Source: Prorocentrum cordatum (lineage: Eukaryota; Sar; Dinophyceae; Prorocentrales; Prorocentraceae). Taken from it: DNA of 64,000 bases. A model generated the notes under the pieces. That model saw nothing but the letters and a program-made list of their open reading frames with translations, had not been told where the DNA came from and made no database searches. The stretch's first letter is position 1, and the number at the start of each line of letters is the position of its first letter. This document shows positions 9,248 to 56,576 of the stretch, piece by piece. Position numbers and translations under genes: made by a program. Where the stretch lies: the NCBI GenBank assembly GCA_963575745.1, contig CAUYUJ010002056.1:30091-94090 (forward strand), in the 5' to 3' direction.

Positions 9248-9307
9248 TTGGATCCTCGGTCTGAGAGACCGCCAGGGAGATCGCTGGCTGGCTAGACGCG
9301 GCACGAG

Positions 9308-11200: not shown

Positions 11201-11219
11201 GCCCGAGCGCGCCGCCAGC
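11173..11219 (+). promoter_or_regulatory. candidate -1 ribosomal frameshift site between gag and pol
   Basis: GGGGGGC at 11173-11179 sits in the gag frame exactly as X XXY YYZ (codons ggg, ggc). A -1 slip enters the pol frame, which is open from there to 15489. One base later an 8-bp perfect stem can form: GCTGGCGG (11181-11188) with CCGCCAGC (11212-11219). The gag stop lies 19 bases after the heptamer. The short spacer is atypical (5-8 nt is usual). Confidence 0.55.
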
Positions 11220-22938: not shown

Positions 22939-23038
22939 NNNNNNNNNNNNNNNNNNNNNNNNNNNNNNNNNNNNNNNNNNNNNNNNNNNNNNNNNNNNNN
23001 NNNNNNNNNNNNNNNNNNNNNNNNNNNNNNNNNNNNNN
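22939..23038. other. assembly gap (100 N)
   Basis: One hundred undetermined bases. The flanking satellite makes it likely that further array copies are missing; 100 N is probably a placeholder and not a measured length. Confidence 0.99.
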
Positions 23039-39299: not shown

Positions 39300-40200
39300 T
39301 CCCCAATTTTCTGCCCCAGAAGGCTCCGAGATGGCCTCCAAGATGGCTAAGATGGCCTCCAAGATGGCCTCCAAGTCCGCCCAAGATGGTCCAAGGCGGC
39401 CTCCAAGACGGCCCAAGAGAGTCCAAGAGGGCCCCAGACGAGCCAAGAGGCCCCTCAGAGGCCTCCCAGACGGCCCAAGAGGCCTCCAAGAGGTCCTCCC
39501 GAAGAGGCCAAAATCATTGATTTTCCTTTGGTTTTGGAAGGATTTGGGAATTTGCTTCTTCTCAGCATTCCGACGGCTCCAGACGGCCCAAGAGGCCCCC
39601 AAGATCGCCCAAGAGGCCCCCAAGAGAGCCCCAGGACGGCCCAAGTGGCCTCCCAGATGGCCCCAAGAGGGCCCCGAGACGGCCCAAGAGGCCTCCAACA
39701 CGCCCAAGATGGCCTCCAAGACGCCCAAGATGGCCTCCAAGACGGCCCCGAAGCGCCCAAAGAGGGGCCCCCGTGGGCCCAGAAAGGCCCCCAAGACGGC
39801 TCCCGACGGCGCCAGACGTGCCAGCAACCCACCAAGATGGCCGAACTTGGGTCGAAGCTGGCCCAAAAGGGCCCAAGAGGCCCCCAAGAGGGCCTCCAGG
39901 AAGGCCAGAAGAGGCCAAACATATTGATTGTCCTTAGGTTTTTGACGGATTTTGGCATTTCCTTCTTTTCGGCCTTCCGACGGCCCGAGACGGCCCAAGA
40001 GCCCCCAGAGATCGCCGAAAGATCGCCCAAGAGGCTTCCAAGACGGCCGAGATGACCTTCAAAACGCCCATGTGTTCCCCGAAGGCTTTCCAAACCGATT
40101 CGGGGAACACATGGTCCGATGGCTTGGTGGCCAAGATGGCCCAGGATGGCCTCCAAGATGGTCCAAGATGGTCTCCAAGTCCGCCCAAGATGGTCCAAGG
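39300..40200. repeat. C-rich repeat block with M-module hairpin, left flank of element 2
   Basis: Two A/T-rich segments (39505-39560, 39915-39970). The M-module hairpin at 40073-40113 is extended here to 14 bp (ATGTGTTCCCCGAA / TTCGGGGAACACAT). Element 2 interrupts the block right after tggtccaagg; the sequence resumes at 56577 as cggcctcca. Confidence 0.9.
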
Positions 40201-40486
40201 AGTCGAAAACAAGCTGGTAAGCTTAGGTATACAGTCCGCCTTAGGCGCTTCCATATCCCAGGCTTAGGCTCATAGCGCATGAGCAAGAGAGCGAGACGAA
40301 GCATGGGATCTGGAGTAAAGAGTAGGATGGGCATCGTCAATGGAAAAGGATGTTTTCCGATCTCGGATGCAAGTAGTGCGCCTCAGTGAGGCACAGTCAC
40401 ATATCTGGCCGGGCCCGGCTTGAGCCAGGCACGGCAGCGGTACATGCTCGATTTATATCTCGCCTTTAACCTTCTCCGTTTAAAGT
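40201..40486 (-). repeat. 3' LTR of element 2
   Basis: Plus strand begins AGTCGAAAACAAGC and ends CCGTTTAAAGT. The one difference from the other LTR is an A in gaggcacagtcac (G in the 5' LTR), which breaks the inverted repeat GCGCCTCA/TGAGGCGC present in the other copy. Confidence 0.93.
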
Positions 40487-40589
40487 CGGAGGGGGAGGAG
40501 ACGAGCAGGTACCGCACTACTATTATGCGGAAAAACAGTGCTAAGCAGCAGCGGCTGCCTACAAGGAAAGGGGCGCGCGAGTAGCCTCG

Positions 40590-43500
40590 CTACCGGCGAG
40601 TTTCCTCGCTGCTAAAGCGCACCTGCCCGCGGGTTTCCCCGCTGGCTCGGGAGGCAGGGCCGTCCTGAGACGACCTGCCCGCCCTATACGGCGTATGTTT
40701 CTTCAGCTCGTGCTTGAAGGATTGCTGGCCGGCCATTACTTGTAGGAGCAACGCGCGGTCAATGCTACCTTTGGTATGACCATCGGCAGTCATATCCCGC
40801 GTGTCACACCATTGGACGCTTTCCACGATTCCACGTTCCATCATCTGGCGAATCCAGCTGATGTGCCCAAGCAGAGTACACTCTGTGGGCTTCTTCAGAT
40901 CCTTGCTAGACAAAGATTTGAAGACAGACTCGGCATCAATAGTCAGAGTGACTTTGATACATAGACCTCCCATTTCCAATATGTTCTTCAGCTGTGTGGG
41001 GGTCAATGGTCCCGAGTGTAGCTCGTGGAGCGTTACAATGGTCGGGTAGCAGTCTTCCAAGTTGTGGGCTGCTGCCAGTGTTTCCGCAGAGTAGCTCGAA
41101 CGCACTTGCAGTCGATGAGACTTGCAGTATGCGTCCACCAGGTGCACGACGGGTTTCCCCGCTTGCGTGTGGCCACGCCTCAGCAGGTTAGCCCCGCGGA
41201 TACCATAGCCTTTGACTTCGTCGTCTTCATCTCCGTTGAGACGACGATAGCCAGAATCGCTATGCAGGTCGACTTCTCCTGTTGGAGTCATAGCATGATA
41301 CACGATCTTCTTCGGACCTGCCTGCAATTTTCTGGTAACCGCGTTTAGTCGTCGTACCTGGATGTTTGTCGGTTCTTGGATACGTTGTAGTGAGACAACA
41401 TAGACCATTAGCCATACCTGCGTGATCAACGCATAGGCTAGAGCGCCACGAAGACTGACGAACATATCAGAAATTGTCTTCGTCGCCTTGCTTTCAGGAT
41501 CAGCTCCTGTGAGTTCTGGATGTGTGATAGGACGAAGCTGTTTGATGTATTCGTCCTGGTCGAGAGTGACGCTCCCATCATCGGTCTTGTTGTACCGAAC
41601 AGCACAGTTCGTGTATGTGTGCTTGTTCAGTTTGCACTTCCCAAACGTATCTTCAACACACTTGACATACTTGTCGATAGCCTCTTCCTTCCCAGTCATA
41701 TTGATGTCATCAACGTGCTTGGCTGTCAAGAGGTTTGGGCTCATCTCGAATTCTTCGTCGTATGAAGTAGGCTGTAGCCCAAAGCTCCTAGTGATGGACC
41801 TGAGCTTCAGCGAGAATGCCCTGGGAGCATCCTTCGTGCCTGTCCCCGGTTTCAGACACCGGAGACAATGCTTTGATTCGTCATATGACTCAAAGCCTGG
41901 CAGTGTGCGAAGGACAGCTGCTGATCCAGGTGGTAGTGTGAAACACACCACACGTTCTTTCTCGCCCGTTGCCGCGGCGAGCTCGCCATAGGTCAGTCCC
42001 TTCAAGAAAGCCATGTTGATGTCCAGGGAAGCGATGATCCAAGCTTTGTTGCATGCAGCAGAACTTGCGAGCAGTCTCTGGCTTGACCTCCTTGCCGTGC
42101 CGGAGAAGGTTTCGACATCAAAGGCTTCGAGGTCCATGAAGCCACGGAGTACCAAGCGTAACCGGATCGTCCTTTCCATTTCGCCCTTTTCGTTCTTGAC
42201 AAACTTCCATTTGTATACGTAGCGTGACGTCATGATGTTAGACGCCTTGCTTAAGTCAGTCATCTGGAAGCATTTGTTGTCAAGCCAAGTCTTCAGCTCT
42301 GTGTAGAGGGCTTTGGAGACTTTGACCGGATTTGCTTGGATGTCGGCCTTCGTGAGTAGATCGTCTTCCTTGACGACCACGGCACGTTTGGAGGCAGCGC
42401 TAACGTATACTCGCATAGTTGTGACGCTGCTGTCATCCAACAGTCGGTGTTGCTGCTCGGACAGGACGACTTTGGACATGTCTGCAGTGAAGCAGAGCTC
42501 GATATACTTCCCGTGCTCATCGGAGTCCAGATCATATTTGCTATCCGGTTCCGTGGAGCATAAAGGAACGTAGTAAGAAGTGTCCATGTCGTATCCTGGC
42601 GGGTGACCCCGCTCCGGCAAGTGGCCTTGCACATCTTCACAGGTCGTAGAGACTAATACACACTGTGTGTCTGTCATGTATGTAGGAACTGTATGCATGA
42701 CTTCCTCTGTGTCAGCTTCAAGGAGTGTTCTGTCATCCATCAGTTCAGCATACCACGACTTCAAGACAAAAGCATCCAGATCTTCTTCTGTCTCCTCTAT
42801 GATGGTCGGAAGCCGACCATCGTTGTCCGTAGGAGGCTCCTCAGGAGCAGCTGCTGGAGGTGATTCGCTTGGTGGTGGACCATCAGCGAGTTCCTCAAAC
42901 TTAGTGAGATCTTGGTCAAACCCAGCAGACGGCTTCCTGGATTTAAGACACTGGATGATGCGTGAGTGTGTAGATCCTGTGATGTCATAGATGTTCAAGG
43001 CAGTGCCATCAGCTTCGTAGTAATGAAACCCAGGGGTCACATCGTTATCATAGTGCACTAGTGTACAGCTGTCTGCATAGGGTGCAGCAGGCAGCTTCGT
43101 CAGGCTCTTGGCGAGTCGTACAGCAATAACGTTTTCAATACGAAAGTAGTTGCGTATGAGGTACTGAAGAGCCAAGTGCACCTTAGGTGAAAGTCGGCTC
43201 GCAGCAGTCATCTGCAGCCGACCCTGTTTCGTTGGTAGATATCCGAAAGTCATGGCGGGTTTCCCCGCTGGCAGACCGGCAATAAAGGCCAATACTGTTC
43301 GAAGGGCCGTATTGTCCGATCCTATCTCGCGGACCATAAGTGCTTCGATGTACAGTGTGTGTCGTGTGTCAGGATACTGTACTCGTACTTCGCGATTGCC
43401 GACCTTCACGATGACCTGGCCTCGGTCAGGTTCGTTGCGGATGACCGGGTATGGACCACTCCATCCACCCCAGTCGTCTTTCGTGGTGGTCGGACGGTGA

Positions 43501-46500
43501 TAGTCCACGAGATCTCCTTCTTTATAGTGAAATTCACCCGTAGCAGTAGTCTTTGTACGGAGAGCCCTGTTCGTCTTGGCAACCGCAGTGGCCTGCGTGA
43601 TTGCCTCCAGACTAACCCTCCTGATTGTTTCCTCCCTTGAGTGATCTGATGATTCAGTGGGCTGATCATGATCCAAGACAGGGAAATCAGGAAGCATAGC
43701 TGGCTGTCTACCATACAGCGCATTGTACGGAGACACTTCATTGTAGAAGGTAAATGCGTTGCTGGCAAACAAGGCTTCATGTAAGAGACGAGTGAAATTG
43801 AGAGGGATATGTAATCTATTCAATTCTTCTCCCATCACGTGTAGGAGGTGTCGAAGGATGCCGTTCCTAGCTTCGATAGTTGTAGCGTGTTGGCCACGCG
43901 CTCGAATACGAAGCTCTGTTCCCTTAGCCTTAAGGATGGCTTTTGCTGTATCATTATTCAGTGCTCCTTCCCCATCGGAGTATAGAATTTTAGCAGGGCC
44001 ATGCTGCATCCAAGTCGTATGATAGGCATCGAGAACAGTATGCATAGCTTTATCAGGAATCTCTGTGCCAGCTGCCCAGCGAATACAACGGTCGATGATG
44101 TGAAAAACAATATGTTCCTGTTTATAAAAGAAGAGATCACATTCGACTTCTTCGTTGAAACGTCCTGGCAGTGACACGGAAGGCATCACCGTGTTGCCTG
44201 GTTTATCCCAGGCTCGACATTCTCTACACGAGTCACAAATGCCTTTGATCAGACTCAAACGGGTTTCACCCAGACCAACCTTGGTTAGAATCATCCGCAT
44301 TTTTGGCTCCTTGGCATGAAACCATCTCAGGTGGAGTTTGCGGAGTTCTCGCTGCACTACAGCTGGGTCGAAGCTGCGCAGGTTTTGGAGGCTGAGCTGA
44401 ACGTCGAAGCGAGTCCAATCAGGGAGCCTTGGCCTTGGCCTCGGCTCTGCTTGAGGCTGCGGCGGTGGTGGAGGATCTCCTCCCTCCATGCGTCCGCGCC
44501 TTGCTGCAACTTGTGGCAGTCTACGGTGATCGTCAGAGCTGCCAGCGCCACTGTTGCCACCATTAGCCCCGTCGGCTCTGGTGATGTCATGGCTGCTGGC
44601 GCCTGCGGTTGGATCGCCCTCACCAGGCCGTGGCGGCCTAGGCGCGCGTATGCGCGCTCTCGCGGCCGGCGCCGCTTTTGCGGCTGGCGCCGCTTCTGCG
44701 GCTGGAGCCGCTTCCGCGGCTGGCGCCGCAGGAGCGGCTTGTCCCGCCGGACGCGGCTGGCCAAAGTTATCTGGCAGTTTCCATTTTTCGGCAAATCTGC
44801 ATTGGCCAGATATCTTGGTGTGGTGAGGATTGCTCTTCTGATATTCCTTCTTACAGCTTGGACAGTCCCAGTAATACGGTTCAACATCATACCACCGACA
44901 CATCTTCGGATCCCTACTGTGCTTTGGTGATTGCTTGTAGTTGTTGTCCACACAGCCAGGGCACCCAAGACCGCCAGGTGGTGGTCGACAGATTTCTCCG
45001 TTTGGGTGTCTCCGGATTGTTGGGTCGTCCAAGTCGTAGCCAGCACTGTTTGTTACGAACGCATAGCTGCGTTCACGATTCGCGAATGGATCGCGACCAT
45101 AAGCAAACAGGTCTTTGGCGATTTGCACCGCATCAACGATCAATGACTGCATTCTGTAGGTATACTGTGCCGCCCTTGCTAACTCTTTGTTACAAGCATT
45201 GGCGTGCACATGATTTCCTGGACAACGCTTGCCTTTGAAAGGTGCCAACAACTCTTCTTTATTTGCCATTATCTGTGTTGGCTTGCGGATATATTGTCCA
45301 AATGAATCTTTGAGACCAGTCGTGCACTGATCAATGATTGTTTGGCAAGTGACCTTGCGTTGTGCCAGTTCTTTCCATGGCTGGATCTCATCCACCCACG
45401 TGCCCATTGGTTGTTCCCTGAGAAAGAAACGTCTTAGGTCGTCTTGTAGTAGAGCGACTGTTCCACAGAACGTGATATGAGGCAGGTCCTCTTTGTGGTG
45501 TTTAAGCCACGTATCATGATTGACCTGTGCGTTGAAGTAGGAAGGGAGTCCAGTAGTTCTGCAGCTTGGCTGCAGAATCGTGATCTTGACAAAGCAAGTC
45601 TTGAGGTAGTGGAGGACTGCTCTTTGTACTTCCGAGTTTCCGAGGTCAACCATAGATATCTTGTCAAGGTTCCCGCCTGACGAGAGTCCCCTCTTGAAGG
45701 CTAATATGGATATACCACCCTTGCCCCCACATAATTCAAGCATGTCCACTTGATTGTTTCTGCCGTAGCATAACGACTGGACTATCGAGAAGACATCAGC
45801 ATGTGAGTCAGCGGGTTGCCCCGCCGGTAACATCATGAAGATGTCCTCTGATTCGCTGTCCGAGTCCGAGTCGTCAAGAGGAACGTCGTTGAAATATGTG
45901 GAGCAGTCAAGCCCTTTGAGGTCCTCTCCACAGTCGTCGTTACCGTCTTCCACTTTCTTCGGGACTTTCTTCGGTTTGATGCCGGCTTCTTTGTCAGCTT
46001 TCTGCTTTTCTTTCTGTTTTATCCTGGCATCAGTGGGCAACGCAGTTTCCGCGGAGAGATCCGCTGCGGAGGAATCCGCTGTAAAATCAGGAAATGGCGG
46101 AATTTCAGGAAGGTCGTTGGTGGGTCGCGTTTGGCAACGCTCAATCGAAGGGGGAGGAGATCGATCGTCATCGACGATCGTCACACGCTTTGGGCGTGGC
46201 CTTCGCGACTCACCATTGCCATGAAGAACTGGAGCCGGAGGCTCCCAGTATAGCCGAGTACTGATGTTTGTAACCCCATCAGGTAATGGAGCTACATAAT
46301 TGTACCCAGTTGGCTGATCCTGGATCCTAATGTCTTGAACAATCTTGTTCGTGTCCAGGTCGGTCGTGACCCTACGAACCACATGGTCCCATTGAGGGCC
46401 CTTCTGTGGACATTGAACGTAGTGTCTGACCTTTTTGTCAACGCGTGTACACACACTGAGGTGTACCGCACTCCGCTCATTCCTGATCATGTTGGCTTTA

Positions 46501-47189
46501 TCGAGTTGATCAAGGAAGCGTGCAATAATAGTAGCCAAAGTTTTATACCGAAACTCGGCATGTTGTTGATCTTGGCCATACCAATCCAAATCATGGTCCT
46601 TGTGTGATCCACAAGTACATCTCCATAAGTTAACCGGTATATGAGGACAAGATGTAGCAACTTGTATATAAGAACCACTGGGATATTTACTGGATCGGTC
46701 AAACTTAATGCCGAAATGACAGAGTCTGATTCGTATAACGCTTAGCTTCAAATCTTCAATAACATCTTTGATCGGACCCTGTTTCCAGAAATACCCGGGT
46801 GGCCCCAGGATAACTATCTGCATCCTCAGAGCACGCGCTTTGATCAGGAGATTTTGTATACGTTGATAGTGTGGTCCCGCCCTCTTTCCTGGAGTACGCA
46901 CGTACCAATCAGAGGGTGTGGCCACCCACAACATATTGTAGTCTCCTGCCAACAAATTTCCCAAATACTGTGTTCCAGTTGAAGTCATTACCTCATTATG
47001 GGTAATCCGGTCGCATATATATCCACGGGATCGGAGTTCAGCGCAAGCTGTACGAATATCTTCGATGACGAGGCATTTTGAATGGTATTTTTCTTCTCGG
47101 GCCTCAGCGCGGCCAACGTATGTCGCGAGGAGGCCGGTATTCGGCTTCTCTTCGCAAGCGAGCGCCGCCGGCGCGCCCGCCTGCCCCCG
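40590..47189 (-). CDS. pol: ORF-C: Pol of element 2 (methyltransferase-like modules, integrase, RT, RNase H)
   Basis: Open from the base after the UGA at 47190-47192 to 40590; the first ATG is at 46988. It is in frame with ORF-B, so readthrough would give one polyprotein. A partial methyltransferase-like stretch lies at about 47010-46690 (DYNMLWVATPSDWYVRTPGK, LGPPGYFWK). A fuller module lies at about 45790-45120 (MLELCGGKGGIS, ILQPSCRTTG, EQPMGTWVDE, CPGNHVHANAC). Integrase: HHCC at 44335-44215 (HLRWFHAKEP, CDSCREC) and catalytic D, D, E at about 44145 (VECDLF), 43975 (YSDGEGA) and 43880 (TIEARNG). RT: SLDINMAFLKG near 42010 and HVDDINM near 41705. RNase H: HSDSGYRR near 41260, SSYSAETLAA near 41090, TIDAESVF near 40930 and ADGHTKG near 40775. 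All catalytic residues are present. Confidence 0.92.
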   Translation of the reverse strand, partial: RGQAGAPAALACEEKPNTGLLATYVGRAEAREEKYHSKCLVIEDIRTACAELRSRGYICDRITHNEVMTSTGTQYLGNLLAGDYNMLWVATPSDWYVRTPGKRAGPHYQRIQNLLIKARALRMQIVILGPPGYFWKQGPIKDVIEDLKLSVIRIRLCHFGIKFDRSSKYPSGSYIQVATSCPHIPVNLWRCTCGSHKDHDLDWYGQDQQHAEFRYKTLATIIARFLDQLDKANMIRNERSAVHLSVCTRVDKKVRHYVQCPQKGPQWDHVVRRVTTDLDTNKIVQDIRIQDQPTGYNYVAPLPDGVTNISTRLYWEPPAPVLHGNGESRRPRPKRVTIVDDDRSPPPSIERCQTRPTNDLPEIPPFPDFTADSSAADLSAETALPTDARIKQKEKQKADKEAGIKPKKVPKKVEDGNDDCGEDLKGLDCSTYFNDVPLDDSDSDSESEDIFMMLPAGQPADSHADVFSIVQSLCYGRNNQVDMLELCGGKGGISILAFKRGLSSGGNLDKISMVDLGNSEVQRAVLHYLKTCFVKITILQPSCRTTGLPSYFNAQVNHDTWLKHHKEDLPHITFCGTVALLQDDLRRFFLREQPMGTWVDEIQPWKELAQRKVTCQTIIDQCTTGLKDSFGQYIRKPTQIMANKEELLAPFKGKRCPGNHVHANACNKELARAAQYTYRMQSLIVDAVQIAKDLFAYGRDPFANRERSYAFVTNSAGYDLDDPTIRRHPNGEICRPPPGGLGCPGCVDNNYKQSPKHSRDPKMCRWYDVEPYYWDCPSCKKEYQKSNPHHTKISGQCRFAEKWKLPDNFGQPRPAGQAAPAAPAAEAAPAAEAAPAAKAAPAARARIRAPRPPRPGEGDPTAGASSHDITRADGANGGNSGAGSSDDHRRLPQVAARRGRMEGGDPPPPPQPQAEPRPRPRLPDWTRFDVQLSLQNLRSFDPAVVQRELRKLHLRWFHAKEPKMRMILTKVGLGETRLSLIKGICDSCRECRAWDKPGNTVMPSVSLPGRFNEEVECDLFFYKQEHIVFHIIDRCIRWAAGTEIPDKAMHTVLDAYHTTWMQHGPAKILYSDGEGALNNDTAKAILKAKGTELRIRARGQHATTIEARNGILRHLLHVMGEELNRLHIPLNFTRLLHEALFASNAFTFYNEVSPYNALYGRQPAMLPDFPVLDHDQPTESSDHSREETIRRVSLEAITQATAVAKTNRALRTKTTATGEFHYKEGDLVDYHRPTTTKDDWGGWSGPYPVIRNEPDRGQVIVKVGNREVRVQYPDTRHTLYIEALMVREIGSDNTALRTVLAFIAGLPAGKPAMTFGYLPTKQGRLQMTAASRLSPKVHLALQYLIRNYFRIENVIAVRLAKSLTKLPAAPYADSCTLVHYDNDVTPGFHYYEADGTALNIYDITGSTHSRIIQCLKSRKPSAGFDQDLTKFEELADGPPPSESPPAAAPEEPPTDNDGRLPTIIEETEEDLDAFVLKSWYAELMDDRTLLEADTEEVMHTVPTYMTDTQCVLVSTTCEDVQGHLPERGHPPGYDMDTSYYVPLCSTEPDSKYDLDSDEHGKYIELCFTADMSKVVLSEQQHRLLDDSSVTTMRVYVSAASKRAVVVKEDDLLTKADIQANPVKVSKALYTELKTWLDNKCFQMTDLSKASNIMTSRYVYKWKFVKNEKGEMERTIRLRLVLRGFMDLEAFDVETFSGTARRSSQRLLASSAACNKAWIIASLDINMAFLKGLTYGELAAATGEKERVVCFTLPPGSAAVLRTLPGFESYDESKHCLRCLKPGTGTKDAPRAFSLKLRSITRSFGLQPTSYDEEFEMSPNLLTAKHVDDINMTGKEEAIDKYVKCVEDTFGKCKLNKHTYTNCAVRYNKTDDGSVTLDQDEYIKQLRPITHPELTGADPESKATKTISDMFVSLRGALAYALITQVWLMVYVVSLQRIQEPTNIQVRRLNAVTRKLQAGPKKIVYHAMTPTGEVDLHSDSGYRRLNGDEDDEVKGYGIRGANLLRRGHTQAGKPVVHLVDAYCKSHRLQVRSSYSAETLAAAHNLEDCYPTIVTLHELHSGPLTPTQLKNILEMGGLCIKVTLTIDAESVFKSLSSKDLKKPTECTLLGHISWIRQMMERGIVESVQWCDTRDMTADGHTKGSIDRALLLQVMAGQQSFKHELKKHTPYRAGRSSQDGPASRASGETRGQVRFSSEETRR

Positions 47190-47192
47190 TCA
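47190..47192 (-). promoter_or_regulatory. candidate stop-codon readthrough site (UGA-CGG) between ORF-B and ORF-C
   Basis: ORF-B ends in TGA followed directly by CGG. The same frame stays open for the whole of ORF-C. UGA followed by CGG is a known leaky context in some plant RNA viruses. The next 40 bases are GC-rich and hairpin-prone (gcgggcgcgccggcggcgc). One of the GC hairpins (47209-47222) lies just before the stop. Confidence 0.6.
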
Positions 47193-50100
47193 GAGGGGCA
47201 TGCTGTTAGCGGATGACTCCGCAGGCGTCACTGGTGCGGCTGCGCTCACGATCTCCACGCGGGTTGGCCCCGCAAGGTCCGTCGAACCTCCGCCCGTGCA
47301 GCTTGGTGGTGGTGGCGGTGTCGCGGGTGGCCCCGCTTGGTTCTCAGGCGACCAATTATTCACCGCCTCCTGGACTTCCCAGAAAATCTTAGACTTCAGG
47401 GCATCCTTCATGTGTGGCCAGGTCCCTTCAGGACACTGTTGGCCTTTCCACCAGCTGTCGAGCGTCCTGTCTACGATCGCACGGGTCGTGTCCTTCAGGA
47501 GCTGCTTGTCGAGATACGGCTCGACAATGAACGTATCAGTCGTAACGGTCATAGACTGTCCCATCGCGGGTTGCCCCGCTGTTACCCCAGCGGGTGACCC
47601 CGCACCTACACCGGCGGGTGGCCCCGCATTGACGGAGTCCTCGTCGTTCTCCGTCTCGGTGTAGCCGTCATGACTACTGCGGATTGTGAAGGTGTTGGTG
47701 ACCGTCTGGCTTTTAGCCCCGTCATACAATCCGCAGGGAATGGCTAGGTGTCCTGAGGGGGTCTTCTTTGCCCTCAGGACTTTGGCGCCCTTCCCCAGCT
47801 TAAGAGTATACTCTCCGCTGGGAAAGATCACCTTCTGGAAGCCTGGCTTTAGCACGATAATTGTGTCACGTGCTTCCATGGCACTCAGGCCCCAGATGGC
47901 TGGGAGGTTTACACCTGAGCCCTCTGCGATGTTGGAAGCATACTCCTCGATGCGGGGGCTTGCCTCATTGGCGTATTGCACCCCGATCTTGAAGTTGCCC
48001 ATTTTCCGACAGATCGCAGCACCCTCACCTACACCATTGATGTAGAGGGTTTTGCTCAGTGTGCATATGGCCGGTCTGTGATTGTACCTGGCCATAACCT
48101 CCTGAAAGGTTCGTGCTGTATTAGCTCCGATGATGTTCACGTTGGAGCCAATGTCTAGCATGAACGATATGCAGGGCATTCCGTCTTCGTCGGGGAAGAA
48201 TGTCCCTGTCCGCGCCGCCAGAGCCATCGTACCGTGGTCATCACTATGGTACGTAATCTGTGAACCGAGCGTGCCTTTCAGTAGGCGTTGTTCCAGCACC
48301 CACTGGCTCATTGTTAGCTCGGTGCACCATATTTGCTCATATTGGCGGCGCTCCTCCACGGTGATTGGTTCCTGTTCAAGGACCCAGTAATTCGCGGAGA
48401 GTGTGGAGGTCCACTCACCTCCTGGCGGAAGCGTATCCGTGATGTCACGTGTGTAAGTCAGCCCTTCCGTGTTGATCATGAAGGTATTGTGGAATTGGGC
48501 TGCTTCAGCGCTTTCCGCACTGGCCCGGCTCCTAGCACTCACCGGGCTCTCTGCACGTGAGGTTCTGGATACACCTCCGCTCCTGCCGCTCCGCCTGATA
48601 TTGGCCTCCATTGCTCTCAGGAATCCTGGATTCGGAGGCCCCGTTGCGGGTGACCCCGCTTTGGCGGCGGGAGCCGCTTCGGCGGGTGGCCCCGCTGCTG
48701 GGGGCCCCTGTGCTCGAAGCGTAGGCAGGATTGGCATCTGGATGCCTTGCTCTGGCGCTGGCCATGGGTGTGTCTGTGCAGCTGGGGCACGTGCGGATGG
48801 CTCCGCCGAGGCGGCTCGAGCCTCTAGTGCCTCCACTGCTTCCCGCAGCCGGCGCAGTTCCCGAGCATCCACCACATACCTTTCCTGCTGGCGCGCCTGT
48901 TCTGACTCAGCGTCGCGCTGTCCAGCATACGGAAAGTGTGCTGTGATTATGCCCGGCCCACGACATACAGCGCAAGGTGCCTCGTTTGGCGTACCTGGCC
49001 GCTGATTGCGGACGTGCTGCTGTGCAACACGATCCCAGCATATATCGTGGAAGAAATGTCCACATGCCAGTCTCCACACCGTGGTGCCCGTCTCGTAGGG
49101 GTCCATACAGATCGGGCACTGTGTGAAATTGTAGTCAGAAATGACTGGCGTGGGCACGTCGGGGCGAGTCCGAGCCTGACGCTCGAAAGTAGTTTCGCCC
49201 TCCCGATATGGCGTCGGTGGTGGCAGTCTGTCTGTATGTTCAGCGGGTGGCCCCGCACCTGCGGGTGTCTCCGCTTGGTTCTCACGCTCGATCCTTCTCT
49301 GGATCGCGCGCTGCTGGCGCAGCCTGGCGTTGTCCCGAACCTGCTGCCTAGATGCCAGTATCGCTTGCTGCGTGTTGTGCACGTCGCGAATGTAGTCTGG
49401 CATTCTGCCCAGAGCGGCTGGCACCGCGAGACCAGCTGGCTGAACTATGGTCTCGGGGTCCGTCGGCGTGGGCATATAGGCGTAGTGCGGCAAAGACTGC
49501 GCATCGACTGCCCGTGTAAACTGCAAACGATACATCTCATTGGCCAAATTCCAAGTGTATTCGTTCGCAGGTGGCCCCGCAATCATAGGAGTGTTATTTA
49601 CTTGCGCGTAGTACTCCGGGTACATCGGCGCGTCCATGGCCGGTGCCTCTGCTGGTCCATGATTGTCCCATCCATATATTGGGTGTGATGCTATTCCTGG
49701 AATAAACACCTGTCGATATGGATTCGTGGGATCAACATTCGGAGCATCATCGGAAGTCCAGCTCCAGAGAGGCCGAAAGTCGCCATGGTTCGTAACATCT
49801 ATGTTGCGGTTCCGCAACAGGCTGGGCACTCTATCAGCTTGTTGCTGTAAGAAGGTAGCCTGTGCTCTCAAAGTGGCCGCCCGACGTTCGTAGTCTGGGC
49901 CCTGCTGACCGTCAGCGGGTGGCCCCGCATGTGCGGATGACTCCGCAGGCGTTCTCTCAGCGGGTGACCCCGCAGCCACTCCTCCTTCACTACCCCTCGG
50001 TGTGCCGAAGGGAGTGGTCGCCTGGAGTGCCGCTGCGAGCGTCGGATTCCCGCGAATCGCCTGGAGTCGTTGCCACAAGCTGTTTTCGCTCGTTTCGGAC

Positions 50101-50501
50101 GGCGGGGTCCGATACGGCGAGCCACCATCTGATCCGTTCATGGGGACAAACCTCGCACCTCCAGCTTGCTGTGGAGGGCGTTGTGGTTGTGTCCCTAGGA
50201 TGCCGGGTGGCCCCGCAGGAGGGCGCAGGTTCCTCTGCTGTGCATCTTGGATACCTGCGTGCACCGCCCACGGGTCAGCTCTGTAGAGCTGATCGGTCAG
50301 CCCAGAGACGTCGGCTGATGTCAATTGACTGTTGAGGGCGTGGACCCATGACTGTTGGTCCTGCCGCCACGGGGATGCTACCGTCGTCACCGGTGTGACT
50401 ACTTGCTGCCACGAACCGTCTGAAGTGTCTACTGCGGGTGTCCCCGCACCTGCGGGTGGCCCCGCTTCAGGCATGGCCTCGTCCTCCTGGGCATTCATCA
50501 T
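47190..50501 (-). CDS. ORF-B: RING-H2 finger and aspartic protease polyprotein of element 2
   Basis: About 1103 residues from the ATG at 50501, which overlaps the ORF-A stop as ATGA. The frame is open further upstream to 50588, so frameshift entry is not excluded. The N-terminal 400 residues are Pro/Ala/Gln-rich with several AGPPAG-type inserts. A C3H2C3 RING-H2 finger lies at 49118-48963 (CPICMD, LACGHFFHDIC, CAVCR), followed by a coiled-coil-like ELRRLREAVEALEARAA. The protease is at about 48150 (FMLDIGSNVNIIG, so D-I-G-S replaces the usual D-T/S-G), with a second strand near 47890 (AIWGLSAMEARDTIIV). RING-H2 domains usually act as ubiquitin E3 ligases; here it could target host factors or Gag. 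I know of no standard Copia polyprotein with a RING finger, but that would need a database check. Confidence 0.85.
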   Translation of the reverse strand: MMNAQEDEAMPEAGPPAGAGTPAVDTSDGSWQQVVTPVTTVASPWRQDQQSWVHALNSQLTSADVSGLTDQLYRADPWAVHAGIQDAQQRNLRPPAGPPGILGTQPQRPPQQAGGARFVPMNGSDGGSPYRTPPSETSENSLWQRLQAIRGNPTLAAALQATTPFGTPRGSEGGVAAGSPAERTPAESSAHAGPPADGQQGPDYERRAATLRAQATFLQQQADRVPSLLRNRNIDVTNHGDFRPLWSWTSDDAPNVDPTNPYRQVFIPGIASHPIYGWDNHGPAEAPAMDAPMYPEYYAQVNNTPMIAGPPANEYTWNLANEMYRLQFTRAVDAQSLPHYAYMPTPTDPETIVQPAGLAVPAALGRMPDYIRDVHNTQQAILASRQQVRDNARLRQQRAIQRRIERENQAETPAGAGPPAEHTDRLPPPTPYREGETTFERQARTRPDVPTPVISDYNFTQCPICMDPYETGTTVWRLACGHFFHDICWDRVAQQHVRNQRPGTPNEAPCAVCRGPGIITAHFPYAGQRDAESEQARQQERYVVDARELRRLREAVEALEARAASAEPSARAPAAQTHPWPAPEQGIQMPILPTLRAQGPPAAGPPAEAAPAAKAGSPATGPPNPGFLRAMEANIRRSGRSGGVSRTSRAESPVSARSRASAESAEAAQFHNTFMINTEGLTYTRDITDTLPPGGEWTSTLSANYWVLEQEPITVEERRQYEQIWCTELTMSQWVLEQRLLKGTLGSQITYHSDDHGTMALAARTGTFFPDEDGMPCISFMLDIGSNVNIIGANTARTFQEVMARYNHRPAICTLSKTLYINGVGEGAAICRKMGNFKIGVQYANEASPRIEEYASNIAEGSGVNLPAIWGLSAMEARDTIIVLKPGFQKVIFPSGEYTLKLGKGAKVLRAKKTPSGHLAIPCGLYDGAKSQTVTNTFTIRSSHDGYTETENDEDSVNAGPPAGVGAGSPAGVTAGQPAMGQSMTVTTDTFIVEPYLDKQLLKDTTRAIVDRTLDSWWKGQQCPEGTWPHMKDALKSKIFWEVQEAVNNWSPENQAGPPATPPPPPSCTGGGSTDLAGPTRVEIVSAAAPVTPAESSANSMPL
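50498..50501 (-). promoter_or_regulatory. ATGA stop/start overlap between ORF-A and ORF-B
   Basis: The sense strand reads TCATGATGAATG. The ORF-A stop TGA (50500-50498) overlaps the ORF-B ATG (50501-50499); a second ATG follows at once. This arrangement is typical of coupled termination-reinitiation. A -1 or +1 shift within the 91-base overlap (50498-50588) is the alternative. Confidence 0.6.
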
Positions 50502-53500
50502 GAGGACTGCCTGGTTTCGAACGGTCGTGGAGCAACATCTTGCTCGGTCATGACCAAATTGAATGGACGACCGTCCGTCTTCGTCCAACCCTTGAGGTAC
50601 ATGGCGTGATCTTCCATTACAGCCAGAGTTCTGTCACACATTTTAAGTGGCAGGTAGTCGTCAGTGCGAATCCTGTCTGCGGGTTGGCCCCGCTTCCGCG
50701 TCTTGTCATAAAACAGCGGATTGCTCCAGGCTTCGCCGACCCGATACTTCGCAATGCTCACGATCTGCATGATATGATCGGGCGGTATACGTCCATCGTG
50801 GCCCCTTGTCATGACTATGTCATTTGCTGATCTCCATAGAGAGAAGCCACTGGACAGCATTTTGTTGATGCTGCAGAATATGAGCACCTCCGAGTCAGGA
50901 CGGATACCCGATTGTATCCTCTTGTCGCCCGGGAGGTAGGGGCAGCCATGCACAAATTGGCGCCCCCCCTTCCTCTTCGGGTTGTCCTGTGCGAGGCACG
51001 AAAGGCCATTGTCCAGAATGCTCTTGACATACTCCCACTTTGTCCCGTGGATGAAATATACCGGGTCGTCCGGTTCTTTCGCCCATGTTGTGATCGGCCT
51101 GAACAACGACTCGGGACAGTGGACGCCTGGACTGCTGTGGCCATTCGTAGCTCTGATGAAGTACTGTGGCCTGCGGTTCGTTGGTCGAAACCTTTGCGGC
51201 AGCAGCAGGCTATCATCAACGCACTTCATCTGGAGCCTGCCCTTCTGCATGCCGTGATGATCAATTATCTCACAGCAGTTTAGCAGCACCCAGTACACGA
51301 ATGACGTGTGGGGCCTGCCCTTGATCAGCACTTCGTGCATGTCACGATAGTGTTTATACTGATCATTTTCCTTCCAGTTTGTCAGCAGATCGTCGATGAC
51401 AACCCAGCCGTCGTACGGATCGAAAGTGCTGACCTTCTCGAAGTATCGATTGTGTTTGTCCTTATAATATGGACTGTGGCGCAAAGCCGTCGAAAACCAG
51501 ATCGATATCTTGGTCATCTGCTCCTTACTCGGCAGGGTCGGATCAGCGCCATTCTGTTGCATGACCTTCAGGAGCGATTCTCTATGCTGCGCAACACGTA
51601 GTGGCGGCCTGTCTCGCAGCATGTTTCCCACTTTCTGTTGTTCGCGCTCCCAGTCATTCTGGCACTTGAAATTCCGACGAACCGGACAGTTGATGACTTC
51701 ATATCGGTCCGTGTCGTCTGGAGTGACTCGTGGGTTGATGGGCTGCCTCGGGCCTTTGTCTACAATGCCTTGCCAATACAACTTGCATTCCAAAGGAATG
51801 ACCCTCAGAACAGACATTATTGGCTGCCCGCTTGCGGGTGACCCCGCTAATGCAGCCGGCGGCGCCTTGACGGGTGGCCCCGCTAATGCAGCTGGCGCCG
51901 CTTTAATGGGTGGCCCTGCAGAACCTGCGGCTGACGAGGCAGCTCCTGCGGATGACTCCGCGCCAGGGTTCGGGTGACCTTTGTTAGTAGCTGCATCATC
52001 GGTTAACTTTTGTTGGTCGCCAAACTCTTTGAGGACTCTGAAACGCTCTTCTCTTGAGAGAGTACTTTCTGCGGGTGTCCCCGCTGTTGCGGCTGGCGCC
52101 GCTTTAGCGGGTGGCCCCGCAGAGCCTTTGTCCTCCTTGGCCTTGGCGGCCTCTTCTGCCCGCACCGACCTCATCCCGGCTTCGGGCTTCGGCTGCGCTT
52201 TCATTCGTGCCGAGCCGGGTTGTGGTGTAAGGCGTGGCTGATGCAGCGTTGGAGTCCAGTCACCTCGGAAAGCTGCTTTAGGCTTGTCACGAACTTCGTC
52301 CTTGACATCGCCTTGGGTCGCTGGAGGCATCGGAGTCGATGGTCCAGCAAAGACCTTCTTCCTCTCTGTCACAGATGGACCAGGAGGATCTGCCGGCTCA
52401 GGGTCGTCCGTCTTGGCGATCGCTCTGACCTTCGCCCGCCCCTGCGTGTCTTCGGGGCTCTTGGACGAGTGCCTTTTTGCAGGAGTCGGTGACGACGAGG
52501 AGTCGGCTTTAGGTCTTGGAGGTGGTCTGCTGCCCTTGCCTGGTCGTGGACCAGGAGGGTCTCTCGGAGGGCCTTCTGGCTGGCCATGATCATGGATAAC
52601 CTGCCTCATCTTGTCGATGTCGGCAACACCCTTTATGGCCAGCTTGTATTTGCCATTCTCATGGCGGTAGAGTACCCTCGTGCAGAACCACTTCTGCGCC
52701 GTAGAGCTGTAGTACCAGCAGGCGCTTCCGTCAGGGAACGGATTTTCCGAGCCGTCTTCTGCCGCCCATTCCTCATTTAGTTCGGTTCGGTCAGTGCCGG
52801 CGGCAGAGGCGACATCTATCCATTCATCCTCCGCAGTTCCAGCGGCTGGTGGTGCTTCTGCGGGTGATCCCGCTTCCTTGCTGGATTCTGCGGGTGACCC
52901 CGCTTCCCCACTGGGTTCTGCGGGTGACCCCGCTTCCCCACTGGATTCTGCGGGTGACCCCGCCTCCTTATGGAATCGGCGGTTCCACTCCTTGAGGCGG
53001 TGGTCATTGGGGAGCTTTGCCCAATTTTCCCTGACGGTGTTGGCCACTTCTTCGGTCATAGGGACGCGATCGGCCTCAGTGATGCGCTTCCCCCCTCCAG
53101 GAACCTCTTTGTTTGGGTCATGGACGTTGCCAGCATCGTCTCCATGAGACCAATTCCACGGGGTCTCTCCGTGGTGAGGGCTCCTGGAAGGGCGGTCCAT
53201 AGGACACCTGCGCATGTGGCCTTTGAAGGGCTCACACTGACACACCTGTTTTCTGTACGTTTTGCGGTCAGTGATGATCTCCTGCTTTTTCGCCCTTTTG
53301 TCCCAGGCCTCTGGCGTCTTGGTCTTGCCGCCCTTGGTACGGATTATTGCGCCAGTCTCGTCCCTTTTGGTGCAGTATTCCTTAGAATACCAATGCCGAA
53401 GAGTCTCCATAGAGTAGTCGGGGTACCATCTTATGTACCAATCCGGCACCTGCTGAGCAGATACTCCAACGGAGTGCTCAGTGCTGTATGGGTAGCCCGA

Positions 53501-56425
53501 TTCGTCGTGCGTAGGGCGTCTAGGAGCAGAGCGGCTCCTTCCGCGGGCTGGCCCCGCTGACGCACTTCCGCGGGATGGCCCCGCCGACGCACTATCACGT
53601 GTCACTGGCCTTTGATCGTCCTGCTCGGAGTCTCGGGGAGGCGACGGTCGCCTGTCCCTCTTGTCGTACCGCATGTCATCCGAGTCCTCTGAGCTGTCCT
53701 GGGCCATGAACACGTTTTGATACGGGCTTCTGAAGTATCCGATGTCATTTAACTGCTCCATCGAGAGGTCGTTAATGTTCATTTGATCGCAACCTTGCAT
53801 GAATACATCCATAGACCAAGCGGGTGGCCCCGCTGTTGCGTCTAGCATTTCTTCGGCGGGTGACCCCGCTAGAGCTTGGAGTGCTGTGAGCATCTGAGAT
53901 GCTGACATGTTCGAATCCAAGTATGGACGTAGACGTGCAACTCCTGGGTGTGACAGCAGTTCATTCATCGTCATCTGCTGCTGTGCTGGCGCACTCAAGA
54001 GTCGGATTGCTTCGGAAACCTGCTCTTGGAGCATGTCGTTGTAATCTTCTTCGGATTCTTCGGAATCGGAATACGCGGGATGGCCCCGCATTTCGTCATC
54101 GGCGTCTCCCATCTCCGAACCAGCCCCCGATGGATTTGGCAGCAACGGCATACCAATCACTTGTGGGGCCAGCGCGGCGGTGAGTTCTTCCTCTGTTGCC
54201 GGGACGGTCTCGGCTTCGGAGACCTCGTCACCGGCGGGTGGCCCCGCTGGAAGACCGAACCAAGCGTTGTACGCAATCTCATCGACCTCGTCCCAGCCGT
54301 GGAACTCGTCGAAGAGGGTCACTGCGTAGTCTTCCAGGGCCACAGTTGCTTCAGCATAGCGGGCCATCACGTAGTACGTGGAGGAGCCCGCAGCGGGAGC
54401 CGCTTCTGGATTGACGTAAAACTCGTAGTCAATGTAATCTATGTCATCCATAAAAGAGTTTTGAGCCAAATGTACGGATCCCTTTCCTTTCCCCTTCGGG
54501 CATTGATCGCGCAAATGCTCTGTGCTACCGCATGTATGACACTTCATAGTATTACCAGAAGCGTCCCTAGGGTTGCCCCTCCGCCCCTTTCCCTTACCGG
54601 AGGTCCGCCTGTGACCTCGACCTTTGCCTCCGATAAGAACTTCTTCAAAAGCCATATCAGTTAAGGACGTGAGGAAAGCAGTAATACCCCTACCATGCAT
54701 ACGGCGCCTGCGACCCCCTTTACCACGACCCTTTCCAAATTGTTTGAAATGTCGGCGTACTGCACGTCTCACCTTTCTGACTGGTTTCTTCATAAAGCGC
54801 CTCCAACGGCGTTTTGATTTGCGATAAGCCATAAAGGCGGCCTCCGCCCTTTGTTGTTCAGAGAGGTGAGTGTCATCCGCTGGATAGTCATTGCCAGCAG
54901 AGACTATGCCATTGTGCTCATCGTCAGATGAGGTATCTGTGTCAGTGCCAGATTCAAACGGTGAGGGTGGCTGAGACCATTGAGCGGATGACTCCGCTTG
55001 GCCCCAGAGGGTTGTGCCCGAGGGCGGGCCTGCAGTGTAGGCGGCGCCCGGCGAGTAGCTCGACCAGGCGTTCGCCTCAGCTGCCTCTGCCGATGCCTGG
55101 CCGGTCTGCCCTAGAAGGGCAGTGGCCTCGTTGGGCATATCGGCTGGGTCAGCCCAGGGATTTGGCTCGCCAGGACCAGCGGGTGACCCCGCAGTCGTGG
55201 CGTAGACACCTGCATGTGAGTGGTGCCCTGTGAAGATACCCGCTATGTTGCCAGGAGAGCGCTCGGCAACATGTCCGTAGTTCCTCATCCTGGTCAGCAG
55301 CCTGTCATAGTCTGCTTGTGTTCGGGGCATCTGATGATTGAAGGGCTCAAGCAGGTGTTGGGCTCGTGACGCGCCAACGCCTAACGCTCTGAAGAGAATC
55401 AGCGTTAGGATCTGAAAGTTGGGGATGACAAAGCCAACAGAGTTAGCCTCGTCACGGGCCATCTCGAATCGAGCTAATACTGAGTCGATTCGCTCGCCCC
55501 TTTCGACGCGGAAGTCGATAAGGGCAGTGCCAGAGTTGAGCTGGCGCTCATCTTCCAGATTTTCAAATTTGGTGCTCAGTAAGTACAGTATGTAGGTTAC
55601 TGCATCCGTTGGCTGTCCATTGACAGTTACACCATAATTGATGATCTGGGAGGGGACCTGCATGGCGATACGACGAGCCAGACCTTGAAGGCCTCGTTGT
55701 AGTGCTGCAGCTTGTTGTGGTGGTGTCATATTGCCACTCGTTACGTTTAGCCATGCATGTACTTCGCGAACGTATTCGCGGAAAGGCGTAGTACCGGCAG
55801 GGTCCCACGAAGGGCCAGTAGTACGCGTGTCGTCCATCCCCTGCCGCATGTATCCCACAGCACATCCCATTATTACCCACAGAATGCCGAAGATAGTTAT
55901 CTTGATCCAATGCATGTGCATTTCGGCTTCGGTGATTGGTTTAGGCTGTGGTTTGTCAGGCTCTGGCGTGGTAGCCGTGAGGCGCCTGACCGGCACGGGA
56001 TGCAGGTGGCCCCGCTGCGGGTAGCCCCGCAGGGTGACCACGTTCTCGATCGAGTTGCCGATTGGCATCTGGTGGAAGTCGGGAGTGTAGTAGCGCAGTG
56101 AAGTAGGAGAGAGCGTCTCGAGTTCGCGGGTTACCCCGCTAGCTCGATCGCGGACTGGCTCCGCTCCTCGCAGAGCCGGCGCAACATGGTATTCCACCGT
56201 AGTAGTAGTCCACCAAGTTGTGCCGTGGATTACAGGAATCAGAGCGAGAGCCAGCCACACGAGAGTGTAGCCAGCTCCGCTACCAAGTCGAAAACAAGCT
56301 GGTAAGCTTAGGTATACAGTCCGCCTTAGGCGCTTCCATATCCCAGGCTTAGGCTCATAGCGCATGAGCAAGAGAGCGAGACGAAGCATGGGATCTGGAG
56401 TAAAGAGTAGGATGGGCATCGTCAA
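50498..56425 (-). CDS. gag: ORF-A: Gag of element 2 with C-terminal Tpt1/KptA-like domain
   Basis: 1975 residues. The first ATG lies inside the 5' LTR and the frame runs through the primer site (encoding LGSGAG). Two hydrophobic stretches, about 54-72 and 172-192, could anchor the protein in a membrane. The capsid-like region is about 215-390. A strongly basic stretch (about 536-620) leads to a CCHC knuckle, 629-642 (CHTCGSTEHLRDQC). A long acidic/Pro-rich linker has many AGSPAE inserts. Residues about 1635-1890 match the RNA 2'-phosphotransferase fold: ALRHSP (R1649, H1650), GWVVIDDLL, YFIRATNGHSSPG (R1758, H1763), VYFIHGT, VHGCPY, GIRPDSEVLIF (R1842), NDIVMTRGHDGRIPPDHI. The Arg-His-Arg-Arg set used by Tpt1 to remove a splice-junction 2'-phosphate with NAD+ is present. 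Why an element carries it is unknown. Confidence 0.85.
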   Translation of the reverse strand: MTMPILLFTPDPMLRLALLLMRYEPKPGIWKRLRRTVYLSLPACFRLGSGAGYTLVWLALALIPVIHGTTWWTTTTVEYHVAPALRGAEPVRDRASGVTRELETLSPTSLRYYTPDFHQMPIGNSIENVVTLRGYPQRGHLHPVPVRRLTATTPEPDKPQPKPITEAEMHMHWIKITIFGILWVIMGCAVGYMRQGMDDTRTTGPSWDPAGTTPFREYVREVHAWLNVTSGNMTPPQQAAALQRGLQGLARRIAMQVPSQIINYGVTVNGQPTDAVTYILYLLSTKFENLEDERQLNSGTALIDFRVERGERIDSVLARFEMARDEANSVGFVIPNFQILTLILFRALGVGASRAQHLLEPFNHQMPRTQADYDRLLTRMRNYGHVAERSPGNIAGIFTGHHSHAGVYATTAGSPAGPGEPNPWADPADMPNEATALLGQTGQASAEAAEANAWSSYSPGAAYTAGPPSGTTLWGQAESSAQWSQPPSPFESGTDTDTSSDDEHNGIVSAGNDYPADDTHLSEQQRAEAAFMAYRKSKRRWRRFMKKPVRKVRRAVRRHFKQFGKGRGKGGRRRRMHGRGITAFLTSLTDMAFEEVLIGGKGRGHRRTSGKGKGRRGNPRDASGNTMKCHTCGSTEHLRDQCPKGKGKGSVHLAQNSFMDDIDYIDYEFYVNPEAAPAAGSSTYYVMARYAEATVALEDYAVTLFDEFHGWDEVDEIAYNAWFGLPAGPPAGDEVSEAETVPATEEELTAALAPQVIGMPLLPNPSGAGSEMGDADDEMRGHPAYSDSEESEEDYNDMLQEQVSEAIRLLSAPAQQQMTMNELLSHPGVARLRPYLDSNMSASQMLTALQALAGSPAEEMLDATAGPPAWSMDVFMQGCDQMNINDLSMEQLNDIGYFRSPYQNVFMAQDSSEDSDDMRYDKRDRRPSPPRDSEQDDQRPVTRDSASAGPSRGSASAGPARGRSRSAPRRPTHDESGYPYSTEHSVGVSAQQVPDWYIRWYPDYSMETLRHWYSKEYCTKRDETGAIIRTKGGKTKTPEAWDKRAKKQEIITDRKTYRKQVCQCEPFKGHMRRCPMDRPSRSPHHGETPWNWSHGDDAGNVHDPNKEVPGGGKRITEADRVPMTEEVANTVRENWAKLPNDHRLKEWNRRFHKEAGSPAESSGEAGSPAEPSGEAGSPAESSKEAGSPAEAPPAAGTAEDEWIDVASAAGTDRTELNEEWAAEDGSENPFPDGSACWYYSSTAQKWFCTRVLYRHENGKYKLAIKGVADIDKMRQVIHDHGQPEGPPRDPPGPRPGKGSRPPPRPKADSSSSPTPAKRHSSKSPEDTQGRAKVRAIAKTDDPEPADPPGPSVTERKKVFAGPSTPMPPATQGDVKDEVRDKPKAAFRGDWTPTLHQPRLTPQPGSARMKAQPKPEAGMRSVRAEEAAKAKEDKGSAGPPAKAAPAATAGTPAESTLSREERFRVLKEFGDQQKLTDDAATNKGHPNPGAESSAGAASSAAGSAGPPIKAAPAALAGPPVKAPPAALAGSPASGQPIMSVLRVIPLECKLYWQGIVDKGPRQPINPRVTPDDTDRYEVINCPVRRNFKCQNDWEREQQKVGNMLRDRPPLRVAQHRESLLKVMQQNGADPTLPSKEQMTKISIWFSTALRHSPYYKDKHNRYFEKVSTFDPYDGWVVIDDLLTNWKENDQYKHYRDMHEVLIKGRPHTSFVYWVLLNCCEIIDHHGMQKGRLQMKCVDDSLLLPQRFRPTNRRPQYFIRATNGHSSPGVHCPESLFRPITTWAKEPDDPVYFIHGTKWEYVKSILDNGLSCLAQDNPKRKGGRQFVHGCPYLPGDKRIQSGIRPDSEVLIFCSINKMLSSGFSLWRSANDIVMTRGHDGRIPPDHIMQIVSIAKYRVGEAWSNPLFYDKTRKRGQPADRIRTDDYLPLKMCDRTLAVMEDHAMYLKGWTKTDGRPFNLVMTEQDVAPRPFETRQSS
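50750..51525 (-). other. Tpt1/KptA-like RNA 2'-phosphotransferase domain (within ORF-A)
   Basis: Nucleotide span of the domain listed under ORF-A. An insert of about 60 residues lies between the GWVVIDDLL part and the IRATNGH part, longer than I recall for bacterial KptA (about 180 residues in all). The known reaction transfers an internal RNA 2'-phosphate to NAD+. Some family members act on 5'-phosphate ends by ADP-ribosylation. Confidence 0.8.
56270..56285 (-). promoter_or_regulatory. primer-binding site of element 2
   Basis: Sense TGGTAGCGGAGCTGGC begins at the base next to the 5' LTR. TGGTAGC resembles the complement of the initiator-Met tRNA 3' end (GCUACCA in animals). The same sequence survives in the relic at 32245-32260. 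Confidence 0.75.
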
Positions 56426-56571
56426 TGGAAAAGGATGTTTTCCGATCTCGGATGCAAGTAGTGCGCCTCAGTGAGGCGCAGTCACATATCTGGCCGGGCC
56501 CGGCTTGAGCCAGGCACGGCAGCGGTACATGCTCGATTTATATCTCGCCTTTAACCTTCTCCGTTTAAAGT
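56286..56571 (-). repeat. 5' LTR of element 2
   Basis: One base differs from 40201-40486. It contains the first ATG of ORF-A at 56425. Confidence 0.93.
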
Positions 56572-56576
56572 CAAGG

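Follow-up and report, generated by a model that had tools for sequence, protein, structure and literature searches.

An LTR (long terminal repeat) retrotransposon of the dinoflagellate Prorocentrum cordatum encodes an RNA 2'-phosphotransferase (Tpt1/KptA) domain in the same open reading frame (ORF) as its predicted Gag. The element is of the Ty1/copia type and spans 16.4 kb on the minus strand (40201-56572) of a 64,000-nucleotide stretch of contig CAUYUJ010002056.1 (positions 30,091 to 94,090), referred to here as the window and numbered from its first letter. The KptA domain shares one open frame with the Gag CCHC zinc knuckle and lies some 1,000 residues beyond it, its motifs are intact and it has been retained in one distant relative.

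We propose that the element captured and kept KptA and that the domain, in the particle, removes 2'-phosphates so that damaged-and-repaired RNA or primer stays usable; we put the probability of this at about 47%. KptA would enter the particle in many copies because it is part of Gag, and would be packaged with the genomic RNA and the primer tRNA. Once inside, it would use NAD+ to strip 2'-phosphates from sites where RNA had been cut and then re-joined by a putative 5'-3' ligase, releasing ADP-ribose cyclic phosphate. The repaired genomic RNA or primer tRNA would then again be a stable, clean substrate. The location in the particle, the substrate and the benefit to the element are what we infer; NAD+-dependent 2'-phosphate removal from RNA travelling with Gag is the most likely role predicted for the domain.

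Identity and active site of the KptA domain

The domain (50801..51508, minus strand; residues 1654-1889 of ORF1) matches Pfam family PF01885 (PTS_2-RNA) with 63.7 bits (cut-off 26), and the match spans positions 6-177 of the 177-position profile. An earlier note on this DNA had recognised Tpt1/KptA from the order of its motifs and named a profile search as one check; the significant match over the whole domain bears it out. The motifs lie at TALRH (51476-51490), KGRLQMK (51224-51244), IRATNGH (51137-51157), FIHGT (51041-51055), GGRQFVHG (50945-50968), SGIRPDSE (50888-50911) and IPPDH (50774-50788). The extent first given for the domain, 50750..51525, does contain it, but the region conserved with the distant relative is wider (50549-51814).

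Matches of the same function were found in NCBIfam (RNA 2'-phosphotransferase, NF002014; E=7.3e-6, 26 bits), in PHROGs (E=9.2e-6) and, by sequence, among solved tRNA 2'-phosphotransferases (7yw3, 7yw2 and 7yw4; best E=2.6e-12). The NCBIfam score does not reach the equivalog cut-off of 239, and judged by these matches the domain is a divergent superfamily member, not an NF002014 equivalog. With hhalign, an element-family profile of eight rows matched six reference KptA proteins with a probability of 96.7 and E near 4e-10, whereas reversing the profile lowered the probability to 0.3 and none of 50 column shuffles exceeded 6.7. With E. coli KptA as the sole reference the probability was only 66.2 (E=5.5e-5). 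The matches in Pfam, NCBIfam and PHROGs and to PDB sequences, together with the shuffled and reversed profile controls, lead us to reject chance similarity. ORF1 was the sole PF01885 match among the 12 ORFs, out of 86 of at least 200 aa in the window, that were scanned with Pfam (the three of this element and nine others).

The reference set comprised KptA from E. coli, Rhizobium, Pseudomonas, an archaeon and two phages, and the joint alignment nine sequences. The catalytic tetrad and the residue roles are taken as described for the CthTpt1 structure in PMC6333775. Arg1663 and His1664 of LRH (51476..51481, minus), Arg1744 of KGR (51236..51238, minus) and Arg1836 of GGRQFVH (50960..50962, minus) are in register with the tetrad of all six references, and both lobes are present; the Arg-His-Arg-Arg set claimed earlier is indeed in place. 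The HGT motif (residues 1807-1809; 51041..51049, minus) aligns with the NAD ribose contact, and Arg1856 of SGIR (50900..50902, minus) is likely the NAD-phosphate arginine. LRH, KxR, GH, HGT and the histidine of the later VH are invariant in 9/9 rows. Two arginines, the fourth residue of the tetrad and that of GxR (R1856), are each kept in 8/9, one relative, P0008, being the exception for both.

Modification of 5'-phosphate ends is the main chemical rival to 2'-phosphate removal. The domain would then cap 5'-phosphate RNA or cDNA ends with ADP-ribose, shielding them from exonucleases, sensors and ligases. Tpt1, TRPT1 and KptA enzymes of several lineages are reported to ADP-ribosylate 5'-phosphate ends of RNA and single-stranded DNA, but the DNA products described in that source are so far in vitro only (PMC8883491). 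Capping is consistent with an active site that is intact by alignment and would suit a particle with both RNA and cDNA ends. No sequence feature here favours it over dephosphorylation, and we hold it to be unlikely. For 2'-phosphate removal, work in yeast offers a rationale: 2'-phosphates arise where the ligase Trl1 rejoins cut RNA, and a 2'-phosphate left by ligation harms mRNA, since without Tpt1 the ligated, 2'-phosphorylated HAC1 mRNA is reported to be cleaved again (PMC6456296).

Relatives and retention of the domain

The distant relative, P0002, is a 1627-aa protein on a 5678-base ENA contig that is probably metagenomic. It carries a complete KptA at its N-terminus, followed in a single frame by a RING finger and a protease-like stretch. 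The region of the element aligned with it (50549..51814, minus) takes in an N-extension, the KptA core and a C-extension, and the later part of P0002 aligns with ORF2 of the element over ~1050 columns at 31% identity. Identity is 50.0% in the KptA core (RNA lobe 40.7%, NAD lobe 57.7%), 51.9% in the RING, 43.8% in the protease and 39.9% in ORF2 30-490. It is 34.7% in the C-extension, 28.7% in the N-extension, 31.9% in the linker at ORF2 570-800 and 22.1% in the tail at ORF2 970-1140. All eight named active-site positions are identical between the window and P0002 (8/8). Retention of KptA in so distant a relative suggests that the element uses the domain.

The domain is not absent from all related sequences, the outcome against which the earlier note had staked its claim. 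Besides the complete copy in P0002, partial ones occur in P0007 (51.4 bits) and P0010 (25.1 bits, just under the PF01885 cut-off), both of which continue from KptA into a downstream SDGSW stretch in common with P0002. P0008, a EukProt protein named Pyramimonas sp., matches PF01885 at 45.9 bits and has no element context. Some matches of these relatives are weaker: P0002 has none in PHROGs and reaches only E=0.0016 in NCBIfam, where P0008 has none.

Gene models from P. cordatum itself (P0001, P0003, P0004, P0005, P0009 and P0011) lie on six contigs of different length and are 79-91% identical to the window in the aligned part, which suggests a multi-copy family in that species. They exit the RNA lobe at common points, three after LLPPR and two after VLIKG, and a common jump into the lobe is seen in P0003 and P0004. 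Past the exit the models hold protease or other sequence; these patterns may reflect errors of gene calling, deletions or true splicing of the element RNA.

Several points weigh against the role that we propose. These can be summarised as (i) three protein-database searches found few relatives (5, 5 and 1 proteins), the P0002 query recovering only P0002; (ii) in P0008 two active-site arginines are replaced by Ile and Cys (tetrad 3/4), so that at least this one relative may be inactive; (iii) the six P. cordatum models cover part of the RNA lobe only, without the NAD lobe, 0/6 match PF01885, and they give no evidence of a whole KptA domain in other copies; (iv) KptA lies within the protease ORF in P0002, which weakens the argument from Gag stoichiometry; (v) primer extension on HAC1 gave product past the 2'-phosphate, as reported in PMC6456296, so that a 2'-phosphate is not an absolute block to reverse transcriptase. 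The last point also weakens the idea, considered and set aside, that 2'-phosphates act as a simple block to reverse transcription.

The arrangement in P0002 qualifies the fusion to Gag that the earlier note had described. The fusion stands for this element, where KptA and the CCHC box share one frame, but in P0002 KptA heads the RING-protease ORF. What the two have in common is that KptA immediately precedes RING and protease, and the Gag fusion is the arrangement of this element.

The replacements in P0008 and the confinement of the six models to part of the RNA lobe would also fit a domain that is no longer an enzyme and serves Gag as an RNA- or NAD-binding module, for example in RNA packaging. 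The N-terminal lobe of Tpt1 is described as resembling winged-helix RNA-binding folds (PMC6333775). However, 8/8 active-site positions are kept in both the element and P0002. A pure RNA-binding role is further disfavoured since no part shared by the window and P0002 is better conserved than the NAD lobe; it surpasses the RNA lobe, the opposite of what such a role would lead one to expect. Loss of enzymatic function is, in our judgement, unlikely.

An active enzyme might also work outside particles. As a cytosolic counter-defence, KptA would finish the repair of RNA, either tRNA or that of the element, after cleavage by host ribonucleases. For phage KptA a role in restoring tRNAs has been proposed, and the KptA of picorna-like and nidovirus polyproteins has been interpreted as processing viral RNA ends (PMC9503650). 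None of the three ORFs of the element has a Pfam match to an RNA ligase, a kinase or a 2H phosphoesterase, although a ligase could come from the host. A soluble role needs no Gag fusion, and we know of no host defence of the ribonuclease-cleavage kind in dinoflagellates. We regard this reading as unlikely, and retain the removal of 2'-phosphates within the particle as our proposal.

Architecture of the element

The element is apparently a young, intact Ty1/copia-type LTR retrotransposon. Pairwise comparison of its 5' LTR (56286..56572, minus; 287 nt) and 3' LTR (40201..40487, minus) found 286/287 positions identical, with one mismatch. A target-site duplication, AAGG on the plus strand, adjoins both the 5' side (56573..56576) and the 3' side (40197..40200); it measures 4 bp (5 bp with the adjoining G), and a 4-bp match for an insertion in repeat-rich DNA is weak evidence alone. 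The putative primer-binding site TGGTAGCGGAGCTGG (56271..56285, minus) directly adjoins the 5' LTR, which is followed immediately by TGGTAGCGGAGC. This site presumably resembles the 3' end of eukaryotic initiator tRNA-Met. No tRNA gene was found in the 64-kb window, and no known RNA family scored at its gathering threshold in 40100-56700.

Two features depart from the copia norm. The LTR ends read GACT...GACT in the sense orientation, not TG...CA, and the 3' LTR is preceded by CTCCTCCCCCTCC, a pyrimidine-rich tract (40488-40530) where a purine-rich one is expected. TG...CA ends and a purine-rich tract are usual rather than strictly defining features of Ty1/copia elements.

The near-identical LTRs bear on whether the KptA domain could be an artefact, that is, a fragment of a host gene, a misassembly beside the Gag ORF or a chance similarity. 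Dinoflagellate assemblies are repeat-rich, and the window holds one noted gap, of 100 N, at 22939-23038. That gap is far from the element, which contains no N bases. KptA shares one unbroken frame with the CCHC box, the LTRs enclose both, and on the independent contig of P0002 a single frame runs through KptA, RING and protease. These observations counter a host-gene fragment or misassembly, and we consider the probability of an artefact close to negligible.

ORF1 (50498..56467, minus; 1989 aa stop to stop) encodes the putative Gag plus KptA, the Gag assignment being made because a CCHC box lies in the same frame and the ORF at the 5' end of the LTR element. The CCHC zinc knuckle of the nucleocapsid, CHTCGSTEHLRDQC (54500..54541, minus), is an exact motif of canonical spacing by eye; its Pfam match (E=0.0054) scores 17.2 bits, below the cut-off of 20.8. 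A capsid-like part was recognised by eye from the translation at approximately 55268..55795 (minus). Upstream of it, the start of ORF1 holds two hydrophobic, membrane-like stretches, again by eye (55850-55909 and 56222-56269, minus). The first Met of ORF1 falls inside the LTR.

ORF2 (47190..50633, minus; 1147 aa) lies in the -1 frame relative to ORF1. The TGA stop of ORF1 overlaps, by eye, an ATG of the ORF2 frame (50498..50503, minus; sense TCATGA), a possible restart. Inspection by eye showed no obvious slippery sequence that would allow a -1 shift from ORF1 into ORF2, and the AUG overlapping the stop is the simpler reading of the ORF2 start. ORF2 encodes a RING finger (48960..49121, minus; PF13639, E=2.3e-7, above cut-off) and a putative aspartic protease recognised by the motif DIGSNVN (48135..48155, minus), which is aligned with P0002. 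The RING finger is an E3-ligase-like domain within the protease ORF of an LTR element.

A TGA with CGG as its next codon (47190..47192, minus) parts ORF2 from ORF3 in one frame. This stop sits in the loop of a predicted hairpin (47180-47200, minus), and read-through is possible; the fold z is only -1.67, with 9/200 shuffles equally stable. ORF3 (40590..47189, minus; 2199 aa) holds integrase-like motifs, reverse transcriptase (RT) and an RNase H-like motif. The RT is a RVT_2 domain (41499..42278, minus; PF07727, E=2.4e-10, 40.9 bits against a cut-off of 31.6). The integrase-like D, D and E (43860..44147, minus; residues 1018, 1072 and 1106) precede the RT at residue 1638, which is the copia order, by motif only. 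Pfam found no integrase (E up to 1), protease or capsid match in the three ORFs. A further stretch of ORF3 (45549-45737, minus), with ELCGGKGGIS and PSCRTTG, resembles a SAM-dependent methyltransferase by eye and has no Pfam match.

Elsewhere in the window a second copia-like element (9296-15489, plus) has CCHC and RVT_2 and no PF01885 match. It is not close to the first, with best BLASTP E values of 3.8 between the CCHC ORFs and 0.001 between the Pol ORFs. An RVT_1 ORF at 23404-24918 (plus) falls slightly under the Pfam cut-off.

The sense strand of the element also contains 28 hairpins of the form GCGGG-N4-CCCGC (for example within 52860-52963, 47566-47627 and 50434-50465, minus), against 0 in the remaining 47.6 kb; their loops are nearly all GNNA. 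Simulation of 200 sequences with the dinucleotide composition of the element gave a mean of 0.03 and a maximum of 1. When any all-GC 5-bp stem with a GNNA loop is counted, the element has 31 in sense and 1 in antisense orientation, and the strands of the rest of the window have 1 and 2. An AGxPA reading frame accounts for 24/28 hairpins, and P0002 contains 8 AGxPA peptides at the protein level (shuffled mean 0.09). The pattern nevertheless looks to lie at the nucleotide level, because 4/28 hairpins lie in other frames and at three sites the loop is GCCA and the stem GCGGC/GCCGC. Taken together, the copies resemble a mini-hairpin family dispersed along the RNA of the element. The KptA region conserved with P0002 (50549-51814) contains none of them. 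Folding of a 131-nt stretch that includes four copies gave a z of -5.86, but some copies pair in the predicted fold with one another, not as their own hairpins. A more sweeping reading would join these observations: an algal LTR lineage with built-in NAD+-dependent RNA-end chemistry, in which KptA borne by Gag or protease erases 2'-phosphates or caps ends and the 31 GNNA hairpins are sites of cutting, joining, binding or packaging. We judge this very unlikely.

Origin and comparison with known systems

Recent capture of the domain from phages or bacteria found no support. With the 422-aa region as query, tblastn gave nothing at E 0.01 among 50,697 phage records. Scans of viral contigs and prokaryote genomes yielded no confirmed relative; such scans depend on short, exactly matching peptides and overlook distant relatives. 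We lean, and only lean, towards an origin from a eukaryotic host gene, because the best solved relatives by sequence are 7yw3 and 7yw2 (tRNA 2'-phosphotransferase 1), which we take to be animal enzymes.

No LTR element with KptA turned up in a limited literature search (mostly open-access articles, without bioRxiv preprints and with the prime sign unsearchable), in agreement with the earlier note, which knew of none. No title on retroelements appeared among the papers retrieved on PF01885 or PTS_2-RNA. The two components are each known from other settings. KptA is reported in polyproteins of the RNA viruses Beihai picorna-like virus and Botrylloides leachii nidovirus (PMC9503650) and of the dicistro-like EPlV2 and PVLADV1 (PMC11316551). 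It is also reported in phages, jumbo phages included, in sawfly nucleopolyhedroviruses and in Bodo saltans virus (PMC9503650, PMC11316551). Among LTR elements, orchid Ty3/gypsy elements carry an AlkB-type m6A demethylase, and an angiosperm screen lists 15 non-canonical domains, all in gypsy, KptA not being among the 9 that are named in the part of the source available (PMC9289625). Symbiodinium retrotransposons carry DNA methyltransferases, which Copia elements there are said to be without (PMC5890265). LTR elements that capture enzymes and RNA parasites that capture KptA are both known; their pairing and the place beside Gag appear new.

If active, the domain would give a retroelement its own NAD+-dependent RNA-repair or RNA-capping enzyme and extend to LTR retroelements a trait of phages and a few RNA viruses. 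Tpt1 function in lineages of unknown substrate, and the question of whether RNA damage limits retrotransposition, would become testable.

Compared with Tpt1/KptA/TRPT1 enzymes (PF01885), the domain has the same lobe order, the same LRH, KxR, GH, HGT, R-x-x-VH and GxR motifs and the E. coli tetrad in register. It differs in being embedded in a retrotransposon protein, in insertions that both lobes carry when compared with the six references and in N- and C-extensions that align with P0002. Viral and phage KptA, as reported, are likewise captured by genetic parasites, and RNA viruses likewise embed KptA in a polyprotein; those carriers are RNA viruses or DNA phages, whereas here the carrier is an LTR retroelement with the domain beside Gag and protease. 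Retroelements with AlkB or methyltransferases, as described in the sources above, also captured and kept a nucleic-acid-modifying enzyme, of other chemistry. With Ty1/copia the element shares LTRs, a target duplication, a putative Gag CCHC, a protease motif and integrase-like motifs before RVT_2; it differs in its 16.4-kb length with LTRs of 286-287 nt, its three ORFs, its atypical LTR ends and pyrimidine-rich tract, and in carrying KptA and RING.

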